A stretch of DNA of 33,889 bases. Source: Granulosicoccus sp. GTDB lineage: Bacteria; Pseudomonadota; Gammaproteobacteria; Granulosicoccales; Granulosicoccaceae. The position numbers and the translations under genes are program-made. Below the pieces are notes generated by a model that did not search any database, was not told the DNA's origin, and was given only the letters and a program-made list of their open reading frames with translations. This document shows, one piece after another, positions 20,102 to 31,935 of this stretch (position 1 is its first letter; each line of letters begins with the position of its first letter). Where the stretch lies: assembly GCA_023300375.1 (NCBI GenBank), contig JALZWO010000124.1, positions 1 to 33,889 of the forward strand, given 5' to 3'.

Positions 20102-20932
20102 ATGCTTTCTAAAATAAAAGCCGCACGAAGTGGTTTGCGCAAATCAGAACAGAAGGTCGCTGATGCGGTGATCGATGATCCCGATGAAGCGGTGCAGTCT
20201 TCTATCCATGCCATAGCTACTCGGGCGAAGGTTAGTGAGCCGACAGTTATTCGATTTTGTCGTGCGCTCGATTGTGTTGGTTTTCAACAATTTAAGCTTA
20301 AGCTGGCTCAAGATCTTGCTAGGCGTGGTACGTTTTTCTACCAAGACGTCACTGCTCAAGATACCAGCAAGCAATTAGCGTCGAAGTTGCTTGATGGCGC
20401 TATTGCTTCGCTGGTGCAAATCCGTGATCAGATAAATGAAGAGTCTCTGGATAGGGCGATTGCTTTGTACGAGGCCTGCAGTCGTGTCGAGCTTTACGGT
20501 TCTGGTGGCTCTGCTGTTGTGGCCGAAGACGCCCAGTTAAAGTTTTTCAGGTTGGGCAAGCCTGCTATTGCTTATTCAGATCCACATATTCAACATGCGG
20601 CTGCCGCCTTGCTTGATCGCGATGCCTTAGTAATCGCAGTGTCTCATTCTGGCCGAAGTAGCGACATTCTCAAGACAGTGGAGATAGCGCGCGCCGCCAG
20701 AGCCAAAGTTATTTCGGTAACAGCCACTCGCTCACCATTGGCTCAATGCAGTGATGTCGCGCTGACTGTGGACGTTAACGAGGACAGCGATATTTTCTCA
20801 CCTGTCAAATCGCGATTAGGTCAAATGGTGGTACTGGATGTACTGGCAGTAGGTGTAGCTGTTCGCGGCGGGGATCATATGCTCGAGCAGCTAGCGAGGG
20901 CGCGCCGCGCTATCGACTTTAAATTCGTTTAG
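20102..20932 (+). CDS. hexR: HexR-type transcriptional regulator (RpiR family)
   Basis: A DNA-binding regulator of glucose catabolism whose known ligand in proteobacteria is KDPG, the substrate of Eda. It has 276 residues. The RpiR helix-turn-helix domain is in residues 1-77: GLRKSEQKVADAVIDDPDEA, then AIATRAKVSEPTVIRFCRAL and GFQQFKLKLAQDLA, all close to HexR of Pseudomonas and enterics. The sugar-binding SIS domain covers about 115-250: RVELYGSGGSAVVAEDAQLK, ALVIAVSHSGRSSDILKTVE and DSDIFSPVKSRLGQMVVLDV. It is the third gene after zwf and pgl, 39 bases from pgl. Two matching operators lie in the zwf/edd divergent region. RpiR paralogues with other ligands exist, but context and operator make HexR the best call. 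Confidence 0.92.
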   Translation: MLSKIKAARSGLRKSEQKVADAVIDDPDEAVQSSIHAIATRAKVSEPTVIRFCRALDCVGFQQFKLKLAQDLARRGTFFYQDVTAQDTSKQLASKLLDGAIASLVQIRDQINEESLDRAIALYEACSRVELYGSGGSAVVAEDAQLKFFRLGKPAIAYSDPHIQHAAAALLDRDALVIAVSHSGRSSDILKTVEIARAARAKVISVTATRSPLAQCSDVALTVDVNEDSDIFSPVKSRLGQMVVLDVLAVGVAVRGGDHMLEQLARARRAIDFKFV

Positions 20933-22425: not shown

Positions 22426-23853
22426 CTAGGTTGGTAATTCTTTCAATCGAGTAAGTCGCATCATGTTGGTAGTGCCTGTTCGGCCAAATGGCATGCCTGC
22501 AGTGATAGCAATGATTTCGCCCATTTCGCCAAATCCTTCTTCTAAGGTGACAGAGATTGCGCTCGGCACCATATCGTCGATACTGTGAACTGCCTCATGT
22601 ACTACGGCATGAACTCCCCAGACTAACGCAAGACGTCGAGCGGTTTCACGGTTTGGGGTACAGCCGATGACAGGAGCCTCTGGACGCTCACGAGCAGCAC
22701 GAAAACTGGAAAATCCAGATTCTGTCCAGGTGAAGGTCGCCGCTAAAGCGATAACCGAGGAGACATGACGTAAAGAAGAGCTTATAGCGTCAGCAGCGGT
22801 GTCGCCTGGAGTGGGTAAGTTGGCATCGATTGATTTTCTGTAATAAGGGTCTCGTTCTACCTCAACAATGATTCTGCTCATTGCCGTGGCAGCTTCGATA
22901 GGAAAACTTCCTGCAGCTGTCTCTGCTGACAGCATAACGGCGTCTGCTCCGTCATAGATAGCAGTGGCTACGTCTGAACTTTCGGCACGTGTAGGCACCG
23001 GCGAAAGAATCATTGACTCAAGCATCTGTGTCGCAACGACTACCGGTTTACCTTCTTGTCGTGCACTTCGCAAAATTCGCTTTTGTACAACTGGCACCGT
23101 TTCTTGAGGCATTTCAACGCCCAGATCGCCACGGGCTACCATCACACCGTCGCTTTCCTGAACGATTTCGTCGAGGTGTTCAATGGCGCTTGGTTTTTCC
23201 AGCTTTGCCATGATTAAGGCCTTGTTACCGACCAGGCCACGCAGCTCTCGCATGTCATCTGGTTTTTGAACGAAAGACATTGCAACCCAATCGACACCCA
23301 AAGACAAACCGTAGGTGAGATCCTTGCGATCTTTTTCAGTTAACGGTGAGATAGGCAGAATTAGGTCGGGCACATTGACGCCTTTATTGCTGCTGATTTC
23401 GCCGCCCACCATGACCTCGGTTAGCGCTGTGCTATCGGTAAACTCGAGCACTTTGAGGCGAATCTTGCCATCGTTTACCAGCAGGCTAGCGCCTTCGCTA
23501 AGCGCTGCGAATATCTCTGGGTGCAGAAGAGGCGCCCTGTTGGCATCTCCAGGTGTGGGGTCTTGGTCTAGCGTAAATTTCTCGCCAACTACCAGCATCT
23601 CTTTTCCGTTGGCGAAAGTGCCAACACGTAATTTTGGACCCTGCAAATCCATGAGAATGCCTATTGGCCGCCCACGTTCCATTTCTATGTCACGGATGAT
23701 GCTGTGCGTTTTGGCGTGGTCATCGTGCGTGCCGTGGCTAAAATTGAGTCTGAAAACGTCAATTCCTGCGTCGAACAGCTTGAGAATAGTTTCTCGGTCG
23801 TTGCTTGAGGGACCTAGGGTGCCTATTATTTTGGCGTTGCGTCTTCGTCTCAT
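22426..23853 (-). CDS. pyk: Pyruvate kinase
   Basis: Transfers phosphate from phosphoenolpyruvate to ADP, giving pyruvate and ATP, in the cytoplasm. The ATG at 23853 gives MRRRRNAKIIGTLGPSS, the usual start of the family, and 475 residues. A TTG five codons earlier is possible; neither has a clear Shine-Dalgarno sequence. Motifs visible are DVFRLNFSHGTHDDH, GILMDLQGPKLRVG, LTEKDRKDLTYGLSLGVDWV, AMSFVQKPDD, LIMAKLEKPSAIEHLDEIV, the active-site block GVMVARGDLGVEMPQETVP, KPVVVATQMLESM and DGADAVMLSAETAAG. It is not in the zwf or edd operon but belongs to the HexR regulon in many proteobacteria, and a weak HexR-like site lies about 72 bases upstream. Confidence 0.96.
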   Translation of the reverse strand: MRRRRNAKIIGTLGPSSNDRETILKLFDAGIDVFRLNFSHGTHDDHAKTHSIIRDIEMERGRPIGILMDLQGPKLRVGTFANGKEMLVVGEKFTLDQDPTPGDANRAPLLHPEIFAALSEGASLLVNDGKIRLKVLEFTDSTALTEVMVGGEISSNKGVNVPDLILPISPLTEKDRKDLTYGLSLGVDWVAMSFVQKPDDMRELRGLVGNKALIMAKLEKPSAIEHLDEIVQESDGVMVARGDLGVEMPQETVPVVQKRILRSARQEGKPVVVATQMLESMILSPVPTRAESSDVATAIYDGADAVMLSAETAAGSFPIEAATAMSRIIVEVERDPYYRKSIDANLPTPGDTAADAISSSLRHVSSVIALAATFTWTESGFSSFRAARERPEAPVIGCTPNRETARRLALVWGVHAVVHEAVHSIDDMVPSAISVTLEEGFGEMGEIIAITAGMPFGRTGTTNMMRLTRLKELPT

Positions 23854-23924
23854 CTTTGGTTTAGTCAAAACTCACATTACAGATAGTGGTGGATACCGAT
23901 ACAGACGAACACCTACTGACAAAG

Positions 23925-23939
23925 TGTAGTCCGACTCCC
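23925..23939 (-). promoter_or_regulatory. Possible degenerate HexR operator upstream of pyk
   Basis: TGTAGTCCGACTCCC on the plus strand fits TGTARTnnnAYTACA with two mismatches, both in the right arm. It lies about 72 bases before the chosen pyk start, a reasonable operator position, and pyk is a known HexR target elsewhere. It is weaker than the zwf and edd sites, so the call is tentative. Confidence 0.35.
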
Positions 23940-23953
23940 ATCATACTTCGTGT

Positions 23954-23977
23954 AGTTTACCGTAAACGTGGCACGTT
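23954..23977. promoter_or_regulatory. Two adjacent 13-bp palindromes in the pyk/glcD divergent region
   Basis: GTTTACCGTAAAC (23954-23966) and AACGTGGCACGTT (23965-23977) are each perfect inverted repeats around one central base, overlapping by two bases. They lie between divergent pyk and glcD, with the nearest start 101 bases away, and look like operators for one or two dimeric regulators. No known consensus was recognised. Confidence 0.4.
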
Positions 23978-24043
23978 AACTCGCAAGCTATGTAAACAGC
24001 TGTATCGCTCCTAATTTGGCAACTTTTGTTCACTGAATTCCTG

Positions 24044-24077
24044 ATAATGGTTAAAACGAGATAATGGTTAAAACGAG
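24044..24077 (+). repeat. Perfect 17-bp tandem duplication upstream of glcD
   Basis: ATAATGGTTAAAACGAG occurs twice head to tail (24044-24060 and 24061-24077) with no mismatch. It lies about 60-95 bases before the glcD ATG, a usual place for activator binding. A TATATT at 24101-24106 might be a -10 box but has no good -35. The repeat may be a doubled operator or a recent slippage event. Confidence 0.6.
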
Positions 24078-24137
24078 GCTTTTACCCGTATCAGCTAAGG
24101 TATATTCACAGAGTCAACTAACTACGGAGCAAGGTGC

Positions 24138-25688
24138 ATGTCTGCAGATCCAGCCGATATGGGTTTAGCCGCTGAGCCGGCGGCCTCAACGATAAGCGCG
24201 TCAACAGATGTGCACAATGCACCTGAACGGCAGGGGCGTAGAGAAAAAGCGGCCTCTGAATTGTCTCGGCTTGTGCCTGCCGGTAGTGTTCTGTGGAGCG
24301 AGGAAGAGCTGAGGCCGTATGAGTCTGATGGATTAACGGCAATGAAACAGACACCGTTGTTGGTTGTTTTGCCTGAGAGCGTTGAGCAAGTACAGGCGAT
24401 TATGCGCTGGGCTAAGCACACGCAAACACCGGTCGTAGCAAGAGGTGCTGGAACGGGTTTGTCAGGCGGAGCGCTGCCACATATTGACGGCATTTTGCTG
24501 GGACTTGCGAAATTCAATGCCATCCTTGAGTTAAATGAAAAACAGGGCTTTGCCCGAGTGCAGCCTGGGGTTCGCAATCTGGCCATCTCTGATGCCGCCA
24601 GACCCCACGGTCTATATTACGCCCCCGATCCCTCGTCACAAATTGCCTGCACTATTGGCGGTAATGTGGCAGAGAATTCGGGCGGAGTTCATTGCCTAAA
24701 ATATGGGCTAACAGTTCACAACGTGCTTTCGGCGACGGTTATCACGATGGACGGTGATTTGCTCACCTTGGGCGCCAGTGGGTACGATAACGCTGGGTAT
24801 GACCTGCTAGCGCTACTTAATGGTTCCGAGGGCATGTTAGCGGTAGTGGTGGAGGTACGAGTCAAGCTCTTGCCAGTGCCGCCGGTCGCCAAGCTGGTTA
24901 TGGCCGCTTTCGACAGTGTAGAAGCGGCGGGCAATGCGGTGGGTGATGTCATAGCTGCTGGTATTATTCCAGCGGGACTCGAACTGATGGACAATCCTGC
25001 CATCGTAGCGGCGGAGGCGTTTGCAAAATGTGGTTATCCCACAGATGCCGCAGCGTTGTTGCTGTGCGAACTTGATGGCATTGAAGAGGAAGTGAACACG
25101 CAGGTTGAGGGTGTGTCGCAAGTATTCAAGGCGGCCAACGTGTCTAGTTTGCACATTGCGGCAACAGAGGCCGAGCGGCTATTGCTGTGGAAAGGACGTA
25201 AATCGGCGTTTCCTGCGGTTGGTCGATTGGCCCCTGACTACTATTGTATTGATGGCACCATTCCGCGCAAACAGTTATCTCACGTGCTGCAACGAATGGA
25301 GCAAATGTCCGCCGAATACAGCCTGCCTATTGCTAACGTATTTCATGCAGGTGATGGCAATTTGCACCCTCTCATCATGTTTGATGCTGGAAAACCCGGT
25401 GAGCTGCATCGCACCGAAGAGCTGGGTAGCCGCATCTTGCAATTGTGTGTGGAAGTGGGTGGTACGGTCACCGGAGAACACGGTGTGGGTATGGAGAAGA
25501 TCAATGAGATGTGCGTTCAGTTCGATGCAAATACATTGACACAGTTTCACAGCGTCAAGAATGCTTTTGACCCTGATGGTTTGCTTAATCCTGGTAAGGC
25601 TGTGCCCACCTTGCAGCGCTGTGCAGAGTTCGGCGCTATGCATGTACACCACGGGGAAGTGAAATTCCCTGAACTGGAACGCTTCTGA
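24138..25688 (+). CDS. glcD: Glycolate oxidase, FAD-binding subunit GlcD
   Basis: The flavin subunit of the membrane-associated glycolate dehydrogenase, which oxidises glycolate (and often D-lactate) to glyoxylate. It has 516 residues, with an extra 30 or so polar residues at the N-terminus relative to the E. coli protein. The ATG at 24138 has GGAG at 24126-24129. The FAD-binding domain (about 70-245) shows PVVARGAGTGLSGGALPHID, PGVRNLAISDAARPHGLYYA, PDPSSQIACTIGGNVAENSG and GVHCLKYGLTVHNVL. The C-terminal FAD-oxidase domain has VFHAGDGNLHPLIMFDAG and GTVTGEHGVGMEKINEMC, with the conserved histidines. The stop overlaps the glcE ATG by one base. Confidence 0.95.
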   Translation: MSADPADMGLAAEPAASTISASTDVHNAPERQGRREKAASELSRLVPAGSVLWSEEELRPYESDGLTAMKQTPLLVVLPESVEQVQAIMRWAKHTQTPVVARGAGTGLSGGALPHIDGILLGLAKFNAILELNEKQGFARVQPGVRNLAISDAARPHGLYYAPDPSSQIACTIGGNVAENSGGVHCLKYGLTVHNVLSATVITMDGDLLTLGASGYDNAGYDLLALLNGSEGMLAVVVEVRVKLLPVPPVAKLVMAAFDSVEAAGNAVGDVIAAGIIPAGLELMDNPAIVAAEAFAKCGYPTDAAALLLCELDGIEEEVNTQVEGVSQVFKAANVSSLHIAATEAERLLLWKGRKSAFPAVGRLAPDYYCIDGTIPRKQLSHVLQRMEQMSAEYSLPIANVFHAGDGNLHPLIMFDAGKPGELHRTEELGSRILQLCVEVGGTVTGEHGVGMEKINEMCVQFDANTLTQFHSVKNAFDPDGLLNPGKAVPTLQRCAEFGAMHVHHGEVKFPELERF

Positions 25689-26809
25689 TGGAGGGTACCG
25701 ACAGTAGTGCTGATCTGATAGATCAGGTTCGACAGGCCATTGATGCCAAAACCCCGGTACGCATTGTTGGGGGTGACAGTAAGGCTGTACTTGGCGAGTC
25801 GTGTAGTGATGAAAATGCAGTAGATCTGAACACTCTCAAACATTCGGGAATAATCAGCTATGACGCCACCGAATTGGTAGTGACAGTCAGGGCGGGTACT
25901 CGGCTTAGTGAGCTCAATAAAGCATTGAACGATGCAGGGCAGATGATGCCATTTGAGCCGCCAGAGCAGGCCGGTGCGACCATTGGTGGAGTACTTGCGT
26001 GTGGCCTGTCCGGACCACGCCGTCCATTTAGTGGATCAGCGCGTGACTATGTTTTGGGCACACGTATTATTAACGGCCAAGCTCAGGATTTATCGTTTGG
26101 CGGTGAGGTCATGAAAAACGTTGCAGGTTATGACGTCTCTCGCGTTCAGGTGGGCGCTTGGGGAACGTTGGGTGTGCTACTTGATGTTTCCATGAAAGTG
26201 CTACCTGTACCTGAGATGGACCTTACGTTGCGACAACAAACCAAGCAGCATGATCTCAGTGCTTTTTCGTCAATAATGAGGCAACCTGTGCCACTCTCTG
26301 GTGCGATGCTCATCGATGATTCTCGCTATCTACGTCTTAGTGGTAGCGAGGCTGCGGTTCGTGCGGCGGCTGCAAGTCTTGGTGGTGACACGTTGGACGG
26401 CAATGCAATCTGGAATGAAGTACGGGATCATACGCATTCGTTTTACACCAACGCCTATGCGGCTTGTGCCAACGGGAATAAAACACTGTGGCGCATCTCA
26501 GTTGCTGATTGCCAACCACCGTTGGAGCTGAACGGAGATTGGCTGTATGAATGGGCTGGTGGGCAACGCTGGTTATTGACGGAATTACCGGCACATACTG
26601 TGTTCAGTGTTGTCGATGCTGCGCAAGGTCATGCCACGCGATACAGCGCTTCTAATGCTAAAGAGCCTTCGTTTCAGCCGATTGAAGGCGGCTTGCAAAA
26701 ATTGCAGTCACGCCTTCGAGACAGTTTCGATCCGCTGCGCTTGTTCAATCGCGGACGCTATCATCCAGAATTGGACGTCCCTTCATCACCAGCTGTTACA
26801 GGCGCCTGA
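25688..26809 (+). CDS. glcE: Glycolate oxidase, FAD-binding subunit GlcE
   Basis: The second flavin-fold subunit of glycolate dehydrogenase, 373 residues, normal for the family. It has one FAD-binding PCMH-type domain: PVRIVGGDSKAVLGESC, LVVTVRAGTRLSELNKALND, MMPFEPPEQAGATIGGVLAC, GLSGPRRPFSGSARDYVLGT and GEVMKNVAGYDVSRVQVGAW. The C-terminal part is shorter than in GlcD and ends with SFDPLRLFNRGRYHPEL. It is coupled to glcD by a TGATG overlap and to glcF by a 3-base gap, so the three subunits are made together. Confidence 0.95.
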   Translation: MEGTDSSADLIDQVRQAIDAKTPVRIVGGDSKAVLGESCSDENAVDLNTLKHSGIISYDATELVVTVRAGTRLSELNKALNDAGQMMPFEPPEQAGATIGGVLACGLSGPRRPFSGSARDYVLGTRIINGQAQDLSFGGEVMKNVAGYDVSRVQVGAWGTLGVLLDVSMKVLPVPEMDLTLRQQTKQHDLSAFSSIMRQPVPLSGAMLIDDSRYLRLSGSEAAVRAAAASLGGDTLDGNAIWNEVRDHTHSFYTNAYAACANGNKTLWRISVADCQPPLELNGDWLYEWAGGQRWLLTELPAHTVFSVVDAAQGHATRYSASNAKEPSFQPIEGGLQKLQSRLRDSFDPLRLFNRGRYHPELDVPSSPAVTGA

Positions 26810-26812
26810 CTC

Positions 26813-28054
26813 ATGCAAACAACTATAGCTCCTGAGTTGATCGATGATCCACGAGCCATTGCTGCAGAAGAGGTGCTGCGTAAATGTGTTCACTGTGGAT
26901 TCTGCTTGGCCACGTGTCCAACATACAACTTGTTGGGTGATGAATTAGACAGCCCGCGCGGCCGTATTTATTTGATGAAACAGGTGGTTGAAGGGCACCA
27001 ACCAACGCAGGCCACACGTACGCATCTTGATCGTTGCTTGTCGTGTAGGAACTGTGAAACCACCTGTCCATCAGGTGTTGAATATGGACATTTGCTTGAT
27101 CTGGGGCGTTCTCTGGTTGAAGAGCAGGTACCGCGCACAGGTGTTGACAAGTGGCTGCGTATGGGCATTCTGAGTGTGTTGCCCTATTCAAAACGCGTTA
27201 CACCTTTAGTCAAGCTAGGGCAGGCTGTGCGCCCTTTATTGCCAAAAGCGCTTGCTGCTAGCGTACCGTTTAAACAGTCTCCCGGGGTTCTGCCAACAAC
27301 GAAGCACGACAGGCATATGTTAGTGCTTGATGGGTGTGTTCAGCCCTCGATGGCTCCAGCTACTAATGCGAGTGCAGCCAGGGTATTGGATGCGTTGGGT
27401 ATTCGTCTGCACGGCGCCCCACAATCTGGGTGTTGTGGGGCCGTTCACTACCACTTAAATGAGCAAGAAAAAGCGAAGGATTTTATTCGGCGAAATATTG
27501 ATGCATGGTGGCCATCCATCGAAGCAGGTACTGAGGCTATTATTGTGACCGCAAGCGGCTGTGGCGTGATGGTCAAGGACTACGCGCATGTGTTGGCTGA
27601 TGACCCTAAGTACGCAAAAAAGGCGACAAGAGTTAGCGAGCTGGCGCGCGACATTATAGAAGTGTTGGTTGATGTCTTGGGTAAGGAGGACCTGTCTCGA
27701 TATCATCAGGCGTCTGCGGCGGTGGGTCGAGTTGCCTTTCATGCACCTTGTACCTTGCAACATGGTCAAAAATTACCGCAGGTCACTGAAGGGCTGTTAG
27801 TGCGATTTGGTTTTGAATTAACACCGGTGGCTGATGGTCACATTTGTTGTGGTTCGGCCGGTACTTATTCAATTTTCCAACCGACGATAAGTCAGCAGCT
27901 CAAAGACAACAAGGTACAAAATCTTCTTGCCGGACAACCGGACATTATCGCCACTGCCAACATTGGCTGTCAGTTACAGATTTCCTCTGGAAGCGGGCAA
28001 CCCGTTGTCCATTGGATTGAACTGGTAGATAGGGTAGTAACAGCTCAGGTATGA
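26813..28054 (+). CDS. glcF: Glycolate oxidase iron-sulfur subunit GlcF
   Basis: The electron-transfer subunit that passes electrons from the flavin subunits to the respiratory chain at the membrane. It has 413 residues. There are two [4Fe-4S] motifs: CVHCGFCLATCP (Cys25, 28, 31, 35) and CLSCRNCETTCP (Cys75, 78, 81, 85). Two CCG domains follow, seen as SGCCGAVHYHLNEQ and HICCGSAGTYSIFQP. The middle segment LLPKALAASVPFKQSPGVLP is typical of GlcF. It starts 3 bases after glcE. No glcG, glcB or GlcC-type regulator is in the window. Confidence 0.95.
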   Translation: MQTTIAPELIDDPRAIAAEEVLRKCVHCGFCLATCPTYNLLGDELDSPRGRIYLMKQVVEGHQPTQATRTHLDRCLSCRNCETTCPSGVEYGHLLDLGRSLVEEQVPRTGVDKWLRMGILSVLPYSKRVTPLVKLGQAVRPLLPKALAASVPFKQSPGVLPTTKHDRHMLVLDGCVQPSMAPATNASAARVLDALGIRLHGAPQSGCCGAVHYHLNEQEKAKDFIRRNIDAWWPSIEAGTEAIIVTASGCGVMVKDYAHVLADDPKYAKKATRVSELARDIIEVLVDVLGKEDLSRYHQASAAVGRVAFHAPCTLQHGQKLPQVTEGLLVRFGFELTPVADGHICCGSAGTYSIFQPTISQQLKDNKVQNLLAGQPDIIATANIGCQLQISSGSGQPVVHWIELVDRVVTAQV

Positions 28055-28087
28055 TGTCTTAACACTTTCGACAATACGTTTATAACG

Positions 28088-29797
28088 ATGCGCCATTATC
28101 ATCACATTGATCTAACAACCCAGCAAGTCCGTTCAGAGGAACTCGAGGGGGAGGATATCGTTCGAGCAGGCCGCTATCTCATTGCGAAAACATTCACTGA
28201 GCGTAATCTGGGCAAAGTAGATCCGCTCTCGCCTGAAAATCCTCTGATTTTTTCTGCAGGACCTTTTGCCGGTACAAATTTTTCAAATGCAAATCGGGTC
28301 AGTGTTGGCTGTAAAAGCCCTCTAACCCTCGGCATCAAGGAGGCAAACGGCGGAGGTACTTTCGCCTTTGCATTGGGGCAATTACAGATTGCTGGGCTGA
28401 CGTTGGAAGGTGCTTGTGAAAGCTGGACGATGATTCACTTTGCGAAGGGTGGAGAGATTTCTTTTCTTGATGCGAGCGAGTATCTAGGATTAGGAAACTT
28501 CGAAGCTGCGGCAAAAATGCATGAGCGCTTCGGCAAAAAGGTTAGTCTGGCGATTTGTGGGCCGGTGGGTGAGTACCAGGGTTTGCTTTCTGGTATCGCT
28601 TTTAGTGATGTAGATTTACGTCCGTCGCGTTTAGCTGCCCGCGGTGGTGTGGGCGCCGTCATGGGGTCCAAGAAAGTCAAGGCTATTATTGTTGATCTAG
28701 ACCGTATGCCGCCCTTGCATGAACGTAAAAAAGTGATGGGTGCTGTGAAGGAATACCGAAAATTGCTCGATGCTGAGCCAGCTATCCAAGCATTTCAGCA
28801 AACGGGCACTGCTATGGTCGCCGACTACACGAATCACGTTGGTGGTATTCCCGTAAAGAATTTTTCTGGCGGACAGGCTCAGGATACAGAGCTTGGAAAA
28901 TTCAAACTCGGTGGCGATTTTCTGCGTGAACAAAACATAGAACGTGGCGGTATTCAAACCCATGCGTGTATGCCGGGTTGCATTATCCAATGTAGTAACG
29001 TTTACGCCGATGCTGATGGCAATGAGGTCGTCTCTCCCATTGAGTATGAAACTATTGGCTTGCTGGGCACCAATTGTGGTCTGGATGATCCCGACGATCT
29101 GGCGGCGCTAAATTATCAGGCAAATGATCTGGGTATCGATACTATTGAGCTTGGAGGCACCATTGGTGTGCTTATGGACGCTGGCAAGGGTCAGTTTGGT
29201 GACGTGCAGTTTATGCACGATGTGGTCAACGACATCCGCGCCGGAAACGATGTAGGCCAGTTTTACGCGCAAGGTACGGCGCGTGTAGGTGAAGCACTCA
29301 AGGTTGCTCGTGTGCCAGTGATTAAGCGTCAGGCTATCAGCGCCTATGATCCGCGCGTTATCGAAGTCACAGGGCTTACCATGATGATGACTGCGCAGGG
29401 AGCTGATCATACCGCTGGAAATTTGCCGTCTTATGATTGCAAAGGTAAGAGTGTCGAGGAATTAGTAGCAGTCAGCTTAGACATTCAAGTCATGTGTGCG
29501 GCTGTGGATTCGCTTGGGCTTTGCGTGTTTGGACGATCTGTTACCAACGAGCAATTAGATTTTATTGTGCAGGCAATAAATGATGCACACGGTGTTCAGT
29601 TGCCCACCAGTTTTTTTGCTGAACTGGGAAAGCAGACCCTGCAGTTGGAAAATGAATTCAATCGCTCAGCTGGCTTTGGTGAGACAGATGACGAATTACC
29701 CGAGTTTTTCTATATGGAAGAACTTCCGCCAAGTGACAAGGCCGCCAGATTTCATACCGAGGATGTCAACAAAGCTGCAAGTTCTTGGTGGGCTTGA
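28088..29797 (+). CDS. Aldehyde ferredoxin oxidoreductase-family protein
   Basis: A tungsten- or molybdenum-bis-pterin enzyme family that oxidises aldehydes to acids. It has 569 residues, near the family length. The N-terminal pterin domain shows NPLIFSAGPFAGT, NRVSVGCKSPLTLGIKEANG and RGGVGAVMGSKKVKAI. The Fe-S ligands are probably Cys294, Cys298, Cys302 (ACMPGCIIQCSN) and Cys479 (DSLGLCVF). The first spacing is C-x3-C rather than the C-x2-C of the Pyrococcus enzyme. Other family features are DLGIDTIELGGTIG and MTAQGADHTAG. It follows glcF by 33 bases on the same strand and is probably co-transcribed, which is unusual. The substrate is unknown; glyoxylate, glycolaldehyde or a related aldehyde are candidates from context only. 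No ferredoxin partner or pterin-synthesis gene is in the window. Confidence 0.85.
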   Translation: MRHYHHIDLTTQQVRSEELEGEDIVRAGRYLIAKTFTERNLGKVDPLSPENPLIFSAGPFAGTNFSNANRVSVGCKSPLTLGIKEANGGGTFAFALGQLQIAGLTLEGACESWTMIHFAKGGEISFLDASEYLGLGNFEAAAKMHERFGKKVSLAICGPVGEYQGLLSGIAFSDVDLRPSRLAARGGVGAVMGSKKVKAIIVDLDRMPPLHERKKVMGAVKEYRKLLDAEPAIQAFQQTGTAMVADYTNHVGGIPVKNFSGGQAQDTELGKFKLGGDFLREQNIERGGIQTHACMPGCIIQCSNVYADADGNEVVSPIEYETIGLLGTNCGLDDPDDLAALNYQANDLGIDTIELGGTIGVLMDAGKGQFGDVQFMHDVVNDIRAGNDVGQFYAQGTARVGEALKVARVPVIKRQAISAYDPRVIEVTGLTMMMTAQGADHTAGNLPSYDCKGKSVEELVAVSLDIQVMCAAVDSLGLCVFGRSVTNEQLDFIVQAINDAHGVQLPTSFFAELGKQTLQLENEFNRSAGFGETDDELPEFFYMEELPPSDKAARFHTEDVNKAASSWWA

Positions 29798-29824: not shown

Positions 29825-31903
29825 TTAGGCTGCGTGGTCTTGGTCGTTGGCAGCGGGTTGGTTGTCAGCGGCTATCAGACTTGTTCCGCACAAATAACGA
29901 GTGATTTCGCGCACGGGCTTGGGCTTACTGAAATAGAAGCCTTGCATCTGATCACAACCTTGTTTGAGGAGCCAGTCGACCTGAGCGGCGGTTTCAACAC
30001 CCTCCGCAACTATGTCAAGTCCTAGCGTTTTCCCCATGTTCAAAATTGTGCGTAAAAGAATGGAGTGTTTGCTGTCACTTAAAAACAGGCGATCAATCTT
30101 CATGCTATCCAGAGGGTAGTTTTGAAGATAGGCCAAGTTAGAATATCCAGTACCAAAGTCATCCAGCGTCAGGCGCATACCCAGTGCACTGATTCGCTGT
30201 AGCAGTTCGTACGCGCCATCTGGATCGTCAGCGAGCAACGATTCTGTGACTTCTAGTTCAATCATTTTCGGGTCACAATCATGCAACTTCAACGCATCGA
30301 TAATATCGATATCCAGTTGATTGGATTCGAACTGTTTCGCAGAGATATTAATAGAAACCTGTATTTCTAAGCCTTCGTCTTGCCACAGACGTTGCTGTCT
30401 CATCGCTTCGTTCAATACCCAGTGCCCCAATTGGACTATCTGGCCACAGTCTTCGGCAATGCTAATGAATCTGTCAGGGGCCAATGTGCCCAATTCTGGG
30501 TGATTCCAACGAACAAGAGCTTCCACCCCACAAACTGTCATGGTGTTGCAGGCGATCTTTGGCTGATAGTAGAGTTCAAATTCATTATTATCGACAGCTT
30601 TCAGAAGATCGTTTTCAATACCCATTCGCTGCTTGATATTACTTGCAGAGGTCATTGACATTCTTGAGTTGAAAAAGCAATAACCGCACTGACTGGCCTT
30701 AGCCGCGTACATTGCGGCATCCGCTTGTTCAAGAAGTTCATTGGCAGAATCTGCATTTTCTGGGTAAAGCGAAATGCCGATACTGGTTCTGATGAGCAGC
30801 TGGTGTTCTGCGATGAACATGTGTTTTGCCATGCTTTCGAGAATTCTGTTTGCGACATTGCTACTGACTGCAGAGGCCTTGGTTTCGGAGAGTATTATGA
30901 TAAATTCGTCTCCAGCAAGCCTGAATACACTGCCTTCACCTCGAACAGATTCTGACAACCTTTCTGCAACTTGTATCAGAAGCAGATCACCGACAGCATG
31001 GCCCAGTGAATCATTGATACTCTTGAACCGATCCAGATCCAGAAACATCACTGCAAAGGGTTGTGGCTCGCTGGCGTCGAGTAGGGCGGCCAACTGATTC
31101 ATTAACGCCACCCTGTTGGGCAGTTTGGTTAGTGAGTCTACAAAGGCTAGTTTATAAGCTTGTTCTTTGGCCGAGCGCTGCTCTGTGATGTCCGTTTCAG
31201 TGGCAAGGTACATTTGTTTGCCGGTGGTGGGGTTTGTGCACCGTTCGATGTGTACAGAGTGCCAACGAATGCCGTTCTTGGTGTACATCTGAGCTTCAAT
31301 GTCGCAAAAATGCTGCCTGGACAGGGTGGCTATGATGCGTGTAGCGTCTTCACTTTTTACCAAGCGTTTGGTCCCTACTGACAGATCAGCTGGCATTGTG
31401 TCTCGAGCAGCACCGTTACAATAAACTAGGTTGTTGGCACTGTCGTAGGCACTAATCATTGTTGTGGTGTGCATGAGCGCTGTTGTTCGGTAAAGCGTCT
31501 CATCGTCAAGAGCCTCGCTAAGAACATGAATCTGCATCAACAGGAGCATGCGATTATCCAAGGTCTTAAACGGCGTCATTAAAAAATTTGCAGTTTTAGG
31601 CGTTTGATTGGGGTACACGGTCCAGCGTTCGAGTGCTGTGGTGTCTTTTTCGAAACACTCTTTCTTGATTTGCTGAAGAGTTTGCTTTACCGAGGCGGAC
31701 GCATCGGCGTTCATGTTGCGCGAACAGAGCTCGCTTGCCGATTTGGCTTCCCAAAATTCAACAGCGTTCTTGTTAGCCCACACAAACGCGTAAGCCTCTG
31801 CGTCAAACAGATACAAAGGTGTTTGGAGTCTAGCCAATGTTACGAGGCGAGGATCGCTCCCGGTGTTGATAGCCAAGCTTTGAGTGCTGTCGCTATCGTT
31901 CAT
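29825..31903 (-). CDS. PAS-GGDEF-EAL cyclic-di-GMP signalling protein
   Basis: A cytoplasmic two-headed c-di-GMP enzyme, 692 residues from the ATG at 31903; a GTG two codons earlier is possible. An N-terminal PAS-like sensor region covers residues 20-125 (TPLYLFDAEAYAFVWANKNA). A second PAS spans about 140-245 and ends in ATETDITEQRSAKEQAYKLA, the usual PAS-to-GGDEF linker. The GGDEF domain runs about 255-415, with DSLTKLPNR, MFLDLDRFKSINDSLGHAVG and signature AGDEF (a G-to-A variant often still active). No RxxD inhibitory site precedes it. The EAL domain runs about 430-680, with EALVRWNHPELG, QVSINISAKQFESN and LTLDDFGTGYSNLAYLQNYP, so its catalytic residues look complete. There are no membrane helices. 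It converges with the AOR gene across 27 bases. Confidence 0.95.
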   Translation of the reverse strand: MNDSDSTQSLAINTGSDPRLVTLARLQTPLYLFDAEAYAFVWANKNAVEFWEAKSASELCSRNMNADASASVKQTLQQIKKECFEKDTTALERWTVYPNQTPKTANFLMTPFKTLDNRMLLLMQIHVLSEALDDETLYRTTALMHTTTMISAYDSANNLVYCNGAARDTMPADLSVGTKRLVKSEDATRIIATLSRQHFCDIEAQMYTKNGIRWHSVHIERCTNPTTGKQMYLATETDITEQRSAKEQAYKLAFVDSLTKLPNRVALMNQLAALLDASEPQPFAVMFLDLDRFKSINDSLGHAVGDLLLIQVAERLSESVRGEGSVFRLAGDEFIIILSETKASAVSSNVANRILESMAKHMFIAEHQLLIRTSIGISLYPENADSANELLEQADAAMYAAKASQCGYCFFNSRMSMTSASNIKQRMGIENDLLKAVDNNEFELYYQPKIACNTMTVCGVEALVRWNHPELGTLAPDRFISIAEDCGQIVQLGHWVLNEAMRQQRLWQDEGLEIQVSINISAKQFESNQLDIDIIDALKLHDCDPKMIELEVTESLLADDPDGAYELLQRISALGMRLTLDDFGTGYSNLAYLQNYPLDSMKIDRLFLSDSKHSILLRTILNMGKTLGLDIVAEGVETAAQVDWLLKQGCDQMQGFYFSKPKPVREITRYLCGTSLIAADNQPAANDQDHAA

Positions 31904-31935
31904 GCTCACTTTTCATTTGATAAACGTCTGAGGTG

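Follow-up and report, generated by a model that had tools for sequence, protein, structure and literature searches.

A glcDEF operon-like unit in Granulosicoccus followed by a putative stand-alone aldehyde oxidoreductase with a re-spaced cysteine motif

The 33,889-nt stretch of contig JALZWO010000124.1 of Granulosicoccus sp. (GCA_023300375.1) that we analysed, referred to here as the window, carries the glycolate dehydrogenase genes glcDEF together with a gene of the aldehyde ferredoxin oxidoreductase (AOR) family, and the evidence supports an operon-like unit of all four. Judged from its sequence, the AOR is best explained as a stand-alone (Class I) tungsten- or molybdenum-bis-pyranopterin aldehyde oxidoreductase with one [4Fe-4S] cluster, from a subfamily in which we found no characterised member. 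Its substrate is still a guess.

An earlier note on this DNA had described glcDEF followed after 33 bases, on the same strand, by a complete AOR-family gene, and the open reading frame (ORF) coordinates and Pfam AFOR domains confirm it. The arrangement is real, and the four genes are probably read from a single mRNA. Chance adjacency or an assembly join was rejected, as glcF stands directly upstream in 13 distinct AOR rows (one sequence to a row). The gap of 28055-28087 contains no terminator-like site in a promoter and terminator scan in which neither class exceeded chance (7 found against 6.3; 5 against 6.5). The AOR gene is intact and under purifying selection. Against the nearest relative, a Granulosicoccus sp. 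metagenome-assembled genome (L004) whose AOR is 97% identical, the ratio of non-synonymous to synonymous change (dN/dS) is 0.030 for the AOR, 0.016 for glcD, 0.104 for glcE and 0.043 for glcF, rough values with dS at 0.5-1.2; pseudogene status was rejected on the intact ORF and the ratio of about 0.03. GlcD scores under both of its NCBIfam cut-offs (777.2 against 897; 520.9 against 567.9), so that its name, still the best match, leans on the neighbouring genes.

The family assignment of the AOR is clear. Both Pfam domains match far above their cut-offs, AFOR_N at residues 5-203 (7.8e-51; 173.1 bits, cut-off 29.8) and AFOR_C at residues 219-553 (6.2e-56; 190.6 bits, cut-off 27), and Pyrococcus furiosus AOR (PfAOR) leads the solved structures in a phmmer search (180.7 bits). 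The AlphaFold model (pLDDT 79.4, pTM 0.87) suggests an intact AOR fold like that of the Pyrococcus enzyme: Foldseek matches it to 1aor (1.3e-34), and the structural alignment with 1aor covers 548 residues (Z 42.0, root-mean-square deviation 2.3 A, 29% identity). Outside the AOR family VIA-align returned no fold apart from one weak match at Z 2.6.

Residues around the expected active site agree with this assignment. T241, E321, Y420 and H441 occupy the columns of PfAOR Thr243, Glu313, Tyr427 and His448 and are invariant in a 33-row alignment (A1); according to PMC12096430 and PMC13328260, residues at these positions form the second shell of aldehyde-type enzymes. At the column of the YdhV metal ligand Cys336 the window protein has V314, and the 54 rows with a letter there have Val (37), Ile (15) or Leu (2) and never Cys. 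A YdhV-like or benzoyl-CoA-reductase-like enzyme was rejected for this lack of Cys, BamB itself standing outside the alignment. The bridging-iron columns of PfAOR hold A340 (Glu332) and H377 (His383), both variable across the subfamily, and do not place the protein in the PfAOR subclade. Class I is defined in a passage of PMC13328260 as WorL without adjacent WorS or WorN, and it fits here because neither gene adjoins the AOR in the window. Neither AorA nor AorC is encoded beside it, which leaves it outside the AorABC type (Class III). The Haloferax WOR83 structure, which has CxxCxxxC, scores 145.1 bits against 180.7 for PfAOR in a comparison made apart from the published clade tree; WOR clade 83 (aerobic WORs) includes Thermus members.

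The subfamily is marked by the spacing of its cysteines. The first three are spaced Cx3Cx3C (CMPGCIIQC; C294, C298, C302), and with C479 as the fourth they would be expected to bind one Fe-S cluster. Each of the four is Cys in all 52 rows longer than 540 aa. The Cx3Cx3C motif is present in 55 of 58 aligned rows and, when correctly read, in two of the others (L087, L092); the remaining row, L052, is a fragment. The five solved AORs that we aligned (1aor, 9g7j, 9mqx, 9q1t, 8c0z) all have CxxCxxxC, as does the other complete AOR of the same genome, on contig C154. These six, and not FOR, WOR5 or BamB, made up the motif comparison, and we make no claim of uniqueness for the spacing. Two relatives at 36-37% identity (L093, L094) keep Cx3Cx3C and, judged by eye, carry Trp at the Tyr420 position and Phe at that of Tyr320. 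Part of PMC12096430 ties Trp in place of the second-shell Tyr to the inactive WOR4.

Compared with known systems, the window protein shares with Class I enzymes (WorL alone; PfAOR, BmWOR) the AFOR_N and AFOR_C domains, the fold, the four second-shell residues, the four cluster cysteines and the absence of WorS and WorN, the likeness to BmWOR being one of class, apart from any sequence comparison. It differs from PfAOR in its Cx3Cx3C in place of CxxCxxxC, its length (569 against 605 aa), its Ala at the Glu332 column and its glcDEF neighbours. Thermus thermophilus HB27 TT_RS10740, on pTT27, is 54.5% identical over nearly its full length, with the same Cx3Cx3C and second shell, but lies beside type III-B CRISPR genes, and the 17.7 kb examined around it lack any glc gene. 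It probably corresponds to TTP0122 in the Thermus genome publication of 2005 (PMC1274311), where functions for the listed AOR paralogues are suggested in general terms only. AorABC of Aromatoleum (Class III, 8c0z) is of the same enzyme family and has a close AorB counterpart on C154; the window AOR stands without adjacent AorA and AorC partners and is only distantly similar, at 25% identity in structural alignment. As for E. coli GlcDEF, the gene order glcD-glcE-glcF is the same, and GlcE and GlcF of the window exceed their NCBIfam cut-offs; GlcD falls below its own, and an AOR follows.

Gene order ties part of the subfamily to glcDEF. A tblastn search places glcF 25-146 bases ahead of the AOR, on its strand, in 13 of the 64 distinct rows. 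The tree, built from 62 rows and 2 outgroups after 20 duplicates and the fragments L046 and L052 had been dropped, has glcF adjacent in 13 rows and near in 3, and all 16 fall inside one 23-row clade (support 97/96). Adjacency to glcF requires 3 changes on this tree, against a mean of 12.0 when labels are shuffled (none of 500 shuffles was as low), and linked-or-near against the rest requires 2. The simplest reading of the tree is one gain and one later loss. Conservation of the pairing in relatives, which the earlier note had proposed to check, therefore holds for 16 of the 62 tree rows but is limited to one Granulosicoccaceae clade of a subfamily found in several other neighbourhoods. Genus-wide or family-wide synteny was rejected, since some Granulosicoccus keep glcDEF without the AOR and the linkage stays within that clade.

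The window's own and same-genus genomes were searched with the AOR (27) and, for 24 of the 27, with GlcF. Eighteen of the 24 have the subfamily AOR: adjacent to glcF in 9, within about 0.9 kb in 2 and on a different contig from glcF in 7. An AOR lies downstream at 11 of 23 same-genus glcF loci, and none was seen at the other 12 within the 1.0-1.5 kb examined. Genome G016 carries the glcF-AOR pair twice; its second copy has the very same score as the pair of G002 and may be a stray contig.

How these enzymes might work together is suggested by their order. The substrate of the AOR would be an aldehyde with a short chain, glycolaldehyde being the most likely, with glycolate as the product; GlcDEF would then oxidise glycolate to glyoxylate, which malate synthase would take; and the electrons of the AOR would pass to a soluble ferredoxin, by analogy with characterised Class I enzymes. 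Glycolaldehyde, one of the earlier note's suggestions, is a plausible best guess: it fits because its oxidation would yield glycolate, on which the enzyme encoded next door acts, and the final product can be used by malate synthase G. Malate synthase G is found in this genome as two complementary contig-end pieces, neither alone over the cut-off, and no glyoxylate carboligase was found above cut-off. That the unit ends in a Class I aldehyde oxidoreductase acting on glycolaldehyde, with ferredoxin as acceptor, is the reading we tentatively favour, at somewhat less than an even chance.

Several points weigh against it. The only pointer to the substrate is the gene linkage, which seems to have a single origin and to have been lost later in seven rows of the clade (five FHA-XdhC loci, L011 and L013), and elsewhere the subfamily AOR occurs in other gene contexts. 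Six of the 24 genomes gave no subfamily AOR. All but one of them have GlcF, and among those five G012, G019 and G023 are 99-100% complete and the other two 63% and 87%. Model residues 416-419, just before Y420, and 430-444, which hold H441, have pLDDT below 50, and the model is therefore silent on substrate fit. A promoter-like site at 28026-28055 (+), at chance level, lies just ahead of the AOR and overlaps the first base of the gap.

The other contexts are varied. A scan of GTDB contigs, a pattern search from one sequence that reaches close relatives only, gave 50 loci, assigned by record title to Granulosicoccaceae, Arenicellales, Acidiferrobacteraceae, SUP05 and a small number of other groups. 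With neighbour families named from one representative each, glcF is directly upstream in 9 loci (and 3.3 kb away in L043), an outer-membrane beta-barrel protein is upstream in 12, FHA is upstream and XdhC downstream in 5, and BioY is upstream in 10, with sarcosine-oxidase (sox) genes ahead of BioY in 8 of those. Loci of the Acidiferrobacteraceae/SUP05 type (L030, L033, L039, L041, L048, L049; L032 and L037 partly) run from a gene that looks glyA-like by eye through sox genes, a class IV aminotransferase and bioY to the AOR, and several (e.g. L033, L041, L044) have a second AOR a few kb off, preceded by a ferredoxin-type gene. Among 369 genomes of the class, the window's own included, 9 have a match at E <= 1e-60, the best match being at least 64% identical in eight and 37% in one. 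Plasmid matches came from 83 records, the top 15 all Thermus thermophilus at 53-55% and the rest, among the best 60 of the 83, at 33% or less. In two strains the alignment to the Thermus relative is split, into 4 pieces on NC_017588.1 and 2 on NC_017273.1, and the gene may be broken there.

This variety of contexts makes a general aldehyde scavenger nearly as likely as an oxidase of glycolaldehyde. The AOR would then act on assorted aldehydes, its place behind glcF giving it a promoter and no pathway, and the linkage would be an inherited accident of one clade. The Thermus copy, which adjoins CRISPR genes in HB27 and transposases in strain SNM7-6, points the same way, and precedent is divided: a section of PMC13328260 counts two aldehyde detoxifiers and two glycolytic enzymes among four characterised Class I members. 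Set against the idea of an accident, three rows retain glcF followed by the AOR although their GlcF shares just 53-59% identity with that of the window, a longer persistence than pure accident would lead one to expect. We consider it unlikely that the AOR takes glyoxylate, the product of GlcDEF, to oxalate, as the earlier note also allowed, or that it acts on formaldehyde. The neighbouring reaction does yield an aldehyde, and the sarcosine-oxidase reaction, whose genes precede the AOR in the Acidiferrobacteraceae/SUP05 branch, can release formaldehyde; but glyoxylate has another use in malate synthase G, and in the sox loci the direct neighbour of the AOR is bioY, with no one-carbon gene. Company with a hydroxyacid dehydrogenase in an operon-like unit might also suggest that the AOR is another oxidoreductase of 2-hydroxyacids, comparable to the Proteus vulgaris molybdenum enzyme mentioned by Arndt et al. 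(PMC6365974). The four-residue aldehyde-type second shell is intact and the YdhV/BamB-type Cys ligand absent (in a comparison that did not hold the Proteus sequence), and we regard this as very improbable.

A separate question is where the electrons go. The earlier note had them possibly passing through GlcF instead of a ferredoxin, and direct entry into GlcF and on to quinone would suit an AOR that adjoins the gene of an Fe-S electron-transfer subunit and whose neighbours within the window, glcDEF apart, include no gene for a ferredoxin or flavin reductase. The GlcF sequences lend this idea no positive evidence. Those of three AOR-less Granulosicoccus genomes are 74-77% identical to that of the window, within the 61-91% of other linked GlcF, and on a quick tree linked and unlinked proteins interleave. 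No signature of AOR linkage was found in 11 linked and 12 unlinked GlcF over 443 columns, 2 of which separate the groups; with this and the interleaving, GlcF gives no sign of adaptation to an AOR. Ferredoxin serves all four characterised Class I enzymes listed in PMC13328260, and we hold the GlcF route improbable. Its fullest form, in which a stand-alone WOR with a re-spaced motif serves as a fourth glycolate dehydrogenase subunit and feeds low-potential electrons from glycolaldehyde straight into GlcF and the quinone pool, is a long shot, though if true it would couple a tungsten enzyme to respiration with no ferredoxin in between.

The earlier note had suggested a search of the rest of the genome for tungstate uptake and pterin-cofactor genes, and moaA, a TupA-like binder and two further AORs are present, so that pterin-cofactor genes are not lacking. 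MoaA is above cut-off on contig C186, and the best solved relative of the TupA-like protein is the tungstate-binding 3lr1 (2e-65). No tupBC was seen among ORFs of at least 120 aa in the 8-kb stretch around the TupA-like gene, where no search aimed at TupB or TupC was made. Contig C154 carries an AorA-like and AorB-like pair with a ferredoxin-like gene ahead, the AorB-like AOR scoring 733 bits to 8c0z, and C186 ends in a third AOR piece, cut by the contig end, near an FAD-dependent reductase. No XdhC-type AOR maturation factor was found above cut-off in this genome; weaker matches lie on three contigs. The TupA-like gene (L132, 3406-4269, on C186) stands, by eye, between GMC-type oxidoreductase and phosphate-acetyltransferase-like genes.

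We take the host bacteria to be probably oxygen-respiring. The earlier note's remark that AORs are commonest in anaerobes holds in general, with an exception in the air-active WOR purified from an obligate aerobe (PMC9424855); given that precedent, finding an AOR where oxygen is respired is unusual but not unheard of. In the open-licence literature we found no report of a glcDEF-AOR pair, and AOR or tungsten was not linked there to glycolate, glycolaldehyde or Granulosicoccus save for single mentions of the words in one paper; the word glycolate is absent from the main texts of PMC6365974 and PMC13328260. In the 2026 classification, as set out in a portion of PMC13328260, 5 of 92 WOR clades contain an enzyme of defined physiological role. 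Gene order links the present subfamily to a known two-carbon pathway in marine bacteria. With a substrate guess that can be tested and a relative in Thermus thermophilus, which is in culture, the subfamily could help to assign a function to one more WOR group and to learn how such enzymes operate in bacteria that probably respire oxygen.

Table 1. Genes and other features of the glcDEF-AOR locus, in window coordinates.
Feature	Coordinates	Strand	Remarks
pyk	22426-23868	-	flanks the glcD side
Divergent pyk-glcD intergenic region	23869-24137		
glcD, FAD-linked glycolate dehydrogenase subunit	24138-25688	+	516 aa; FAD_binding_4, FAD-oxidase_C; GlcD is best NCBIfam match, under cut-off
glcE, FAD-binding subunit	25688-26809	+	373 aa; NCBIfam GlcE 430.8 bits, cut-off 284
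glcF, 4Fe-4S/CCG electron-transfer subunit	26813-28054	+	413 aa; NCBIfam GlcF 624.3 bits, cut-off 333
glcF-AOR gap	28055-28087	+	33 bases
AOR/WOR catalytic subunit	28088-29797	+	569 aa; likely cluster ligands C294, C298, C302, C479; second shell T241, E321, Y420, H441
Terminator-like stem and T-rich tail at AOR stop	29778-29796	+	weak; scan at chance level
GGDEF/EAL protein gene	29825-31909	-	flanks the AOR side

The sequences around the genes offer some minor observations. No Shine-Dalgarno-like sequence was seen by eye before the AOR start in 28055-28087; Met1 and Arg2 of the AOR are invariant in the 33-row alignment despite this. Upstream of glcD, in the pyk-glcD intergenic region, 3 of 9 loci checked (L007, L020, L045) have perfect TGTAGT-N3-ACTACA palindromes, which presumably resemble the HexR operator; the window has GTTTACCGTAAAC instead. 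An RpiR-family gene (HTH_6 and SIS domains) lies at 20102-20932. Also upstream of glcD, at 24043-24076, the 17-base unit GATAATGGTTAAAACGA stands in tandem in two copies, and the 97% relative L004 has a single copy with one change.

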